Source of the DNA: Paenibacillaceae bacterium
GTDB taxonomy: Bacteria > Bacillota > Clostridia > Lachnospirales > Lachnospiraceae
Length of the DNA stretch: 64,000 nucleotides
Direction: 5' to 3'
NCBI GenBank assembly: GCA_015057715.1
Contig: SVDS01000005.1
Span: 18,585 to 82,584 of the forward strand
Part shown: positions 17,132-60,360 of the stretch, piece after piece
Numbering within the stretch: the first letter of the stretch is position 1
How the letters are laid out: every line of letters begins with the position of its first letter
The notes under the pieces: generated by a model
Databases searched by the model: none
What the model was told of the DNA's origin: nothing
Seen by the model: the letters and a program-made list of their open reading frames with translations, nothing else
Made by a program: the position numbers and the translations under genes

Positions 17132-18732
17132 AACGTTTGTTAAGGACGAAAGGCTTGTGGCTTGCAGCCGGAAGCATTCTGCTTTTGATGTTCCTGTTTG
17201 TCAGAACCTATATGAAAACCATCGTTGGAATTCCTTCTCCGGAATTTGAGCCGGTTCGCCGGTTTTACTGGTGGTTTATTGTCTTCGGTTGTGGATTTCT
17301 TGCTGCATTAGCGTTTTTTTTGTGGATAAAAAATTTTTTAAACCAGTGGCTGTTTCCGCTGGTTGTAATCGGACTGGGTGTATTTTATATGTTTGCGTTA
17401 ACGCCTTTTTCTGCGCCCGATGAAGCGGCTCACTTTGTCAGTGCTTATCGTCTATCTAACCAGTTGATGGGAAAACAGGCGGTAGCAGGGAAGGACTATT
17501 TAAAGCATGCAACGCCGGAAGAAAAAGAACGGATTAAAAAAGGAGCCAATGTCCTGGTTCGAAGTGAAGATGACGTATCAGGTCTCTATGCAGAGCCCGG
17601 TCAGAGAACGTACAACCGTATTCTGACGGAGCTGTTTTCTCTTGATCACAGCCAGTCGGTGACCGTGCGGGAGGAAGTCCCGGTGAATACCACTCCTGTG
17701 ATCTATCTGCCTCAGGCAATAGGTATCACCCTCGCCAGACTTTTGCATCTTGGTTACATTCCTCTGGTATATCTGGGACGATTTATGAATCTTCTGGTAT
17801 TTGCAGCCATGGCAGCCGTTTCGGTCCGGCTGATGCCCTTTAAAAAGGAAGTTTTAATGGCGGTATCCTGTCTGCCTATGACTCTTCACCTGGCATCGTC
17901 CTATTCCTATGATACTGCATTTATCGGCCTTTCCATGCTTTTACTTTCCTGGTGCTTTCATCTGGCTTACGAAAAGGAAGAGATAAAACTGAAAGATCTG
18001 GTGGTGCTGACACTTTTACTGATCCTGTTAGAACCGGGGAAAATCGTATATCTGCCTGCAGCCGGAATCTGTCTGCTGATTCCGAAATCTAAATTTAAAT
18101 CTCAGAAACATTACTGGATTTCTGTTTTTGGTGTCCTTGCAGTCATGCTGCTGGCAGTTTTTCTGGTAAACCGTCTGATTCTCTCTGCCTGGGCAGGTGC
18201 TACGGAAAGCTACGTGGGGTGGAGCGAAGCGGCAGGTTATAACTTATCCGATGTATGGCAGCGGCCGTTTTATGTATTTACGGTCTTTTATGAAACCCTG
18301 GTAACCCAGTATGACTATTATCTGGTGACTATGCTGGGTGGCTTTTTGGGGAATTTAGATCCCAACTTAACGGTACCGCCGGTCTGCCTTACCCTTCTTT
18401 GGTATGCGCTCTTTATCAGTGTGGTAAAGAGAGATGGGGAAGTGGTGAAAATGACGGACGGTCAGAAGCTATGGATCTTGTTTCTGGTATTTGCAAGTGC
18501 AGTACTGGTTCTGACTTCCATGTTTCTGGGGTATACACCCAGAAATTTAACGTATATTACAGGAGTCCAGGGACGTTATTTCATTCCCCTTCTGCCCCTG
18601 CTGTTACTGACCATATTTGACCGGCGTCTGGTAATCGGTGTGGATTTAAGAAAAAGTGCATGGTATCTGGAATGCTTTGTCAGTATCTATGCTCTGATCC
18701 GTATCTGCTCCACGTCGTGTCTGCGCTACTGA
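17128..18732 (+). CDS. DUF2142-family polytopic membrane protein (glycosyltransferase-C-like)
   Basis: 534 aa; FMFALTPFSAPDEAAHFVSAYRLSNQLMG motif; many TM helices; overlaps DUF2304 by 4 nt. Confidence 0.82.
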   Translation: MKRLLRTKGLWLAAGSILLLMFLFVRTYMKTIVGIPSPEFEPVRRFYWWFIVFGCGFLAALAFFLWIKNFLNQWLFPLVVIGLGVFYMFALTPFSAPDEAAHFVSAYRLSNQLMGKQAVAGKDYLKHATPEEKERIKKGANVLVRSEDDVSGLYAEPGQRTYNRILTELFSLDHSQSVTVREEVPVNTTPVIYLPQAIGITLARLLHLGYIPLVYLGRFMNLLVFAAMAAVSVRLMPFKKEVLMAVSCLPMTLHLASSYSYDTAFIGLSMLLLSWCFHLAYEKEEIKLKDLVVLTLLLILLEPGKIVYLPAAGICLLIPKSKFKSQKHYWISVFGVLAVMLLAVFLVNRLILSAWAGATESYVGWSEAAGYNLSDVWQRPFYVFTVFYETLVTQYDYYLVTMLGGFLGNLDPNLTVPPVCLTLLWYALFISVVKRDGEVVKMTDGQKLWILFLVFASAVLVLTSMFLGYTPRNLTYITGVQGRYFIPLLPLLLLTIFDRRLVIGVDLRKSAWYLECFVSIYALIRICSTSCLRY

Positions 18733-59799: not shown

Positions 59800-59828
59800 T
59801 TGTGGACCATGGAAATATATGGTAAAAT
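59800..59828 (+). promoter_or_regulatory. Putative promoter of the small toxin ORF
   Basis: TTGTGG (59800-59805) - 17 bp - TAAAAT (59823-59828). Confidence 0.6.
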
Positions 59829-59908
59829 TTATTCAGGAGTAACCGAATACAGGGTGGAACCTTCCAACTTTTATGTTTACATGTCGTAACAGGATGGGAG
59901 GTGTGCAG

Positions 59909-59992
59909 ATGGACATATACCAAACTTTAAGCATATTGTTTTTAGGAGGTACGTTTCTAATTGCATTGCTGACTTACATAGGAAAAAAATAG
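59909..59992 (+). CDS. Putative holin-like toxin (type I toxin-antitoxin peptide), 27 aa
   Basis: MDIYQTLSILFLGGTFLIALLTYIGKK*, preceded by GGGAGGTG. One hydrophobic helix with a basic C-terminus; resembles the Hol-Tox family pattern MxxYexLslMxxFGxFxiaLLTyIxKK. Below the ORF-track size cutoff. Confidence 0.78.
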   Translation: MDIYQTLSILFLGGTFLIALLTYIGKK

Positions 59993-60090
59993 CCTACCCT
60001 GCCGGCAAACAGGATAGGCGTGCTCATTACCACATGAGCATTTAACCATTCATGGGAGCTTCCACCTTGTGTGGCGGTTACTCTTTTATA
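59983..60090 (-). ncRNA. Candidate antisense antitoxin RNA, convergent with toxin mRNA
   Basis: Minus-strand promoter-like TTTACA-18-TATATT (60125-60120 / 60101-60096). Minus-strand terminator GCCTATCCTG TTTGCCGG CAGGGTAGGC TATTTTTTT, whose T tract is the AAAAAAA of the toxin's last Lys codons. Confidence 0.6.
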
Positions 60091-60183
60091 ATATAAATAT
60101 ACCACATTGCAGATATGATTGTAAAGAGAGAAATCTGATTAATTGCTTTGTTTATAATTGTTAGTGCTAAATATAACAAAAAG

Positions 60184-60220
60184 GCTGCCGCTCAACTGAG
60201 AAACTTCAGTCGGGCGGCAT
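60184..60220. terminator. Imperfect hairpin with A/T-rich flank between toxin locus and rfbC
   Basis: GCTGCCGCTCAACTGA GAAAC TTCAGTCGGGCGGCAT. The best T tract is on the minus strand (CCTTTTTG), so the direction is uncertain. Confidence 0.5.
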
Positions 60221-60360
60221 TTATGCATATTTGCATCACAAACAGGCTTCAAACCAGGTAAGAACCAATAAAAATTTTCCTATATATAGAAATCTTGGCT
60301 GAGTTGTGGTAGAATGCTACAAGTAAAAGAATGTTTTGATATGTAAAGGAGCATAAAAAT

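Follow-up and report, generated by a model that had tools for sequence, protein, structure and literature searches.

Covarying 5′-3′ closure of the toxin mRNA in a putative type I toxin-antitoxin locus of Lachnospiraceae

Introduction

The described system that most resembles the locus reported here is bsrG/SR4 of the Bacillus phage SPbeta. In both, a small hydrophobic toxin is encoded opposite a convergent antisense RNA, a putative one at our locus, that covers the 3′ part of the toxin mRNA, a long 5′-3′ helix closes this mRNA, and the Shine-Dalgarno (SD) sequence is held in a short hairpin of the 5′ untranslated region (UTR). According to the passages on this system in two reviews (PMC6562991, PMC7430163), SR4 contacts the 3′ part of helix P1 of the bsrG RNA, and its binding at the 3′ end lengthens the pairing of the SD from 4 to 8 bp. 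The txpA/RatA system of B. subtilis likewise combines a convergent 3′ overlap with an SD in a short helix; the passages that describe it (PMC3531473, PMC7430163) do not state a 5′-3′ closing helix, and we liken it to our locus by description rather than by sequence.

Long-range contacts between mRNA ends are also part of more distant type I systems. In aapA/IsoA of Helicobacter pylori, as predicted for our locus, a 5′-3′ long-distance interaction occurs together with SD-sequestering hairpins that form co-transcriptionally (PMC6733600). In hok/Sok as well, the toxin mRNA of a type I system folds back from 5′ to 3′, and closure of the Hok mRNA is described, in the part of the same article that treats it, as inhibitory until 3′ processing. 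A literature search of limited scope returned no paper in which Lachnospiraceae are linked to both type I toxins and antisense RNA, and none that connects Lacrimispora to type I toxins.

Here we analyse a locus within a window of 64,000 nucleotides, which is the stretch of contig SVDS01000005.1 (assembly GCA_015057715.1, Lachnospiraceae) from position 18,585 to 82,584. All coordinates below refer to this window. A first-pass annotation had proposed that inverted repeats flanking a small toxin open reading frame (ORF) close the toxin mRNA end to end.

Architecture of the locus

The toxin ORF (59909-59992, + strand) encodes a hydrophobic peptide of 27 aa, MDIYQTLSILFLGGTFLIALLTYIGKK, that matches the Hol_Tox profile (PF16935) with 34.1-34.9 bits, above the curated cut-off of 23.3, and that matched no other family in Pfam. 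It missed the equivalog cut-off of PepG1 (NF041589), with 15.4 versus 70 bits. The SD sequence, GGGAGGTG (59896-59903, + strand), lies 5 nt upstream of the ATG at 59909. The probable toxin promoter, TTGTGG-17-TAAAAT (59800-59828, + strand), was read by eye and has a weak consensus, and the pattern scan made no call there; this reading places the transcription start site (TSS) near 59835.

On the - strand, the pattern scan recognized both a putative promoter, TTTACA-18-TATATT (60096-60125), and a clear, strong intrinsic terminator formed by a 12-bp stem and TATTTTTTTC (59992-60019). These patterns delimit a putative antitoxin RNA of about 105 nt (59985-60089, - strand, ends inferred), which is conserved in homologs and would overlap the toxin mRNA. 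Judged from the sequence, the locus is laid out like a type I toxin-antitoxin system, in which the mRNA of a small hydrophobic toxin is overlapped in its 3′ part by a convergent antisense RNA, and on balance the locus is probably a chromosomal system of the Hol_Tox/BsrG kind. Convergent RNAs with repeats are also encoded by par of pAD1 (Fst, RNA I/RNA II), where the repeats are direct; those of the window locus are inverted, and its toxin matches Hol_Tox instead.

The pattern scan found no canonical + strand terminator after the 3′ repeat, so the presence of the whole 3′ arm in the toxin mRNA is a matter of inference. The compensatory changes described below argue that both arms act within one transcript. 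Approximately 100 nt past the 3′ arm, a GC-rich hairpin followed by a short T-rich stretch (60185-60225, + strand; GCTGCCGC...GGGCGGC) fails the rule of the pattern scan, yet transcription of the toxin gene could in fact terminate there.

Covariation supports closure of the mRNA ends

The 5′ arm of the proposed helix (59835-59866, + strand) begins at the presumed start of the toxin mRNA, and the complement of the 3′ arm (60053-60085, + strand) forms the 5′ end of the putative antisense RNA. Both repeats are present as annotated, and the duplex between them comprises 30 computed pairs, rather than the approximately 27 noted before, in blocks of 11, 13 and 6 that are interrupted by a small internal loop and one C·C mismatch (-46.1 kcal/mol). 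Only 1 of 1,500 arm pairs that were placed at random across the window with this geometry scored as well. Furthermore, the minimum free energy structure of the transcript from 59835 to 60092 is closed from 5′ to 3′ (-93.4 kcal/mol, z = -6.4).

Covariation was sought in homologs and found. Across 45 alignable homologous Lachnospiraceae loci, the ten outer pairs of the helix are standard in 95.1% of cells, and 15 compensatory double changes that keep the pairing fall on branches of the tree. When the same substitutions were redistributed over the same tree in 300 simulations, such double changes averaged 1.49 and never exceeded 6, and pairing registers slid from the true one yielded 0-2. The arms were also compared by a swap test on 88 non-redundant loci gathered by the toxin profile only, without reference to the arms. 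Each 5′ UTR paired with its own 3′ region at a mean of -44.0 kcal/mol versus -34.9 (sd 0.57) for swapped partners, and none of 20,000 swaps reached the own-locus energy. Own arms still paired better when swaps were confined to toxin clusters (-39.5 kcal/mol, sd 0.50); in one cluster of 13 loci, the swap test alone was not significant (p = 0.10). Moreover, of about 50 further public-genome loci picked by the 3′ arm alone, nearly all possess a 5′ arm that matches it, even where the toxin is a very different one.

The tree test, the swap test and the Rfam structure discussed below all support the long-range closure proposed in the first-pass annotation. Matched mutations keep the ends paired in dozens of related gut bacteria, and the closure is neither a chance product nor recent. 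We searched for loci that keep the ORF yet lose complementarity, and no clear case emerged: among the weakest-pairing loci, the toxin ORF is visibly altered, its start was mis-called, or the 5′ arm falls outside the 72-nt window used. In two loci (L045 and L105), the toxin C-termini are altered or truncated and arm pairing is weak too, which would fit a need for pairing that lasts only as long as an intact toxin is encoded.

As had been noted earlier, the sense and antisense RNAs have look-alike 5′ ends, which agree at 24 of the 33 columns when aligned. Because the arms pair and the antisense RNA begins at the 3′ arm, the two RNAs necessarily start alike. For the accompanying idea of an inverted duplication of a promoter-proximal segment we found no evidence, and the likeness is only what pairing requires. 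Indeed, compensatory change keeps the helix family-wide and across different toxin sequences, and selection for pairing therefore accounts for the similarity of the arms.

Some analyses are not used as support. A swap test that included the promoter regions was inflated because promoters that face each other repeat one consensus in inverted orientation; it was discarded and rerun without the 5′ promoter. A column-by-column covariation scan with the tree null did not single out the helix pairs and is uninformative because misaligned columns dominate; the homolog alignments carry small indels near the anti-SD. An asymmetry of G·U over A·C pairs (50 to 11), considered as proof of strand, leans to the mRNA strand and lies within the null range. 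An alignment of the antisense part misaligned two subtypes, so loci were gathered by the unbiased toxin-profile search instead.

The outermost 5′-3′ closing helix of the Rfam BsrG covariance model (RF01412) is the same helix, and the window locus aligns to this model from end to end with 24.7 bits, below the gathering score of 55. Because the model already contains this helix, closure has to be regarded as a known feature, which occurs here in a new, compact variant. Unlike BsrG RNA, the locus has no terminator hairpin adjoining the 3′ arm on its downstream side, where the putative AT-rich antisense promoter stands, and it is without the middle helix between the 5′ UTR and the post-stop region. 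Its antisense RNA would start at the arm itself, whereas SR4 reaches beyond bsrG and is 180 nt long.

Predicted effects of closure on the Shine-Dalgarno sequence

An anti-SD sequence forms the end of the 5′ arm (CCTTCCA, 59860-59866, + strand), and most homologs have CCTCCC in its place. At the start of the 3′ arm stands an SD look-alike (TGGGAGC, 60053-60059, + strand), which reads GGGAGG in many homologs. The anti-SD thus has two mutually exclusive partners, and it is predicted to pair with either the SD or the look-alike, not with both. Covariation between the inner look-alike segment and the anti-SD is modest and suggestive only.

Partition-function folding of 56 loci, which treats isolated RNA with inferred ends (TSSs and mRNA 3′ end) and ignores ribosomes, kinetics and proteins, gave a probability of pairing between the SD and the 5′ UTR of 0.40 for the full RNA. 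The probability was 0.86 for the nascent RNA, and masking of the 3′ region as a stand-in for coverage by the antisense RNA brought it to 0.82. The predicted cost of opening the SD was 6.15 kcal/mol for the full RNA, 9.92 with the 3′ end masked and 10.45 for the nascent RNA; masking raised it in 50 of 52 loci. Masking of the look-alike only brought the cost to 13.1 kcal/mol, with an increase in all 52 loci, and masking of the anti-SD lowered it to 5.0 kcal/mol. At the window locus the cost is 5.6 for the full RNA versus 9.1 when masked, and two copies in the same genome (C228 and C41) changed little or not at all when the 3′ end was masked. Folding therefore predicts that closure lowers the opening cost because the anti-SD of the 5′ UTR is titrated away from the SD by the look-alike that the 3′ arm carries.

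The SD is still mostly paired in the full RNA (unpaired 0.16). With the anti-SD engaged by the 3′ arm, it is predicted in many homologs to be held by a segment of the ORF instead. The codons of this ORF anti-SD, CTT (43/48) and GCC (31/32), are among the aligned codons that vary least at synonymous sites, with one TTT position as the only one of lower or equal variation. The ORF anti-SD resembles that of aapA3 (PMC6733600).

The first-pass annotation had further suggested that closure blocks translation as in Hok. Folding predicts the opposite sign: the lock would be the local hairpin between the 5′-UTR anti-SD and the SD, and closure would weaken it. The comparison with aapA, which is again by description, leads to a similar contrast, in that the 3′ end of aapA provides an anti-SD that locks the SD, whereas the 3′ end at the window locus provides an SD look-alike that would titrate the anti-SD. 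It is nonetheless worth weighing whether closure is a translation lock, such that the closed full-length mRNA stays untranslated until trimming at the 3′ end activates it, given that hok and aapA3 are precedents (PMC6733600), that the closed fold is very stable, and that the SD is mostly paired within it. We regard this as unlikely, since for 50 of 52 loci folding predicts that closure makes the SD easier to open and that removal of the 3′ end makes it harder, and since the 3′ arm carries an SD look-alike and not an anti-SD.

The SPbeta bsrG sequence also folds into a long 5′-3′ helix, and its SD hairpin becomes longer when the part covered by SR4 is masked. Despite the longer local hairpin, the cost of opening the bsrG SD is unchanged by masking (10.0 vs 9.9). 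At our locus, folding predicts a tightening of SD sequestration by antisense binding at the 3′ end that is like the action of SR4. Given these likenesses in the helix and in SD pairing, we suggest that the window locus works most like bsrG/SR4.

Possible mechanism and alternatives

The model that we consider best overall, and toward which we lean, is that closure loosens the SD and that the antisense RNA re-locks it via the 3′ arm. In the nascent mRNA, the anti-SD of the 5′ UTR would clamp the SD in a local hairpin. Once the 3′ arm is transcribed, the extreme 5′ and 3′ ends of the mRNA would close, which is the step that covariation supports, and the SD look-alike may capture part of the anti-SD. 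The expected product is a compact mRNA with an SD under only weak restraint, which in many homologs would come from the ORF-internal segment.

The antisense RNA is a perfect complement of the 3′ arm and a near-copy of the 5′ arm of the mRNA. Its computed binding energy to the 3′ arm is -74.8 kcal/mol, whereas the 5′ arm in cis reaches -46.1, so it should displace the 5′ arm. The freed 5′ UTR would then clamp the SD again, and the long sense-antisense duplex would presumably be a target of RNase III, by analogy with bsrG/SR4. When the antitoxin is absent, the mRNA would persist and be translated. All steps beyond the closing helix are predictions.

A three-way RNA switch, in which the decoy SD titrates the anti-SD so that closure arms the mRNA, and in which the antisense RNA displaces the 5′ arm and re-locks the SD, is a tentative proposal that we lean slightly against accepting in full. 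If true, it would be a logic common to Hol_Tox loci across Lachnospiraceae and would offer an evolutionary rationale for the dual action of SR4. It also turns the vague idea of co-evolution in the first-pass annotation into a signed prediction, namely that breaking the 3′ arm should make translation lower, not higher. The loci form a naturally covarying data set in which the toxin mRNA, its own ends and the antitoxin compete for the same sequence.

Perhaps the helix serves mainly for stability or 3′-end formation, either as a shield of both mRNA ends against exonucleases or as a terminator stem followed by TCTTTT, with incidental effects on the SD. The lack of another terminator directly downstream and the T-rich tract past the arm in homologs would fit such a role, as would a weak local 3′-arm hairpin that we considered as a terminator (mean -8.8 kcal/mol) and the RNase sensitivity that bsrG RNA acquires on high-temperature refolding (PMC6562991). 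This explanation seems improbable to us because it leaves unexplained why the innermost part of the arm is an SD look-alike with an effect in 52 of 52 loci. That the inverted repeat is a DNA-level feature with no RNA function, such as an operator that serves the two promoters or the trace of an inverted duplication of recent date, is highly improbable and largely refuted by covariation: it does adjoin two facing promoters, but the compensatory changes are restricted to one pairing register, the same helix occurs in Rfam BsrG, and the arms diverge in sequence between loci but remain complementary.

Occurrence of related loci

Loci of this type are common among Lachnospiraceae and occur in several copies per genome. 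A Hol_Tox match is present in 123 of the 396 genomes of this family that were searched, and the genome of the window carries about nine. Four of its loci (C185, C194, C41 and C228) have the arm type of the window locus, and others have arms that differ in sequence. A pattern scan for the 3′ arm returned at least 116 stretches, which among the matches listed are mostly from Lachnospiraceae and include Lacrimispora, Blautia, Acetatifactor, Hungatella, Robinsoniella and other genera. An identical toxin is encoded in Lacrimispora xylanisolvens DSM 3808 (locus L192). The phage and plasmid collections searched held no match to the locus.

Loci of other Hol_Tox subfamilies, both in the same genome (C84, C23, C48 and C9) and elsewhere (L132, L134, L136 and L140), have closing helices of entirely different sequence, and in some of them a T tract follows the 3′ arm. 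Copies of the locus also lie at contig ends of the same genome (C194:34-332 and C73:1-44), consistent with near-identical repeats breaking the assembly. Finally, two to three Hol_Tox loci occur in tandem, approximately 350-520 bp apart, at G252:C162:9392-10477, G252:C29:23123-23542 and G046:C1:1653175-1654030, which suggests local amplification of whole toxin-antitoxin units.
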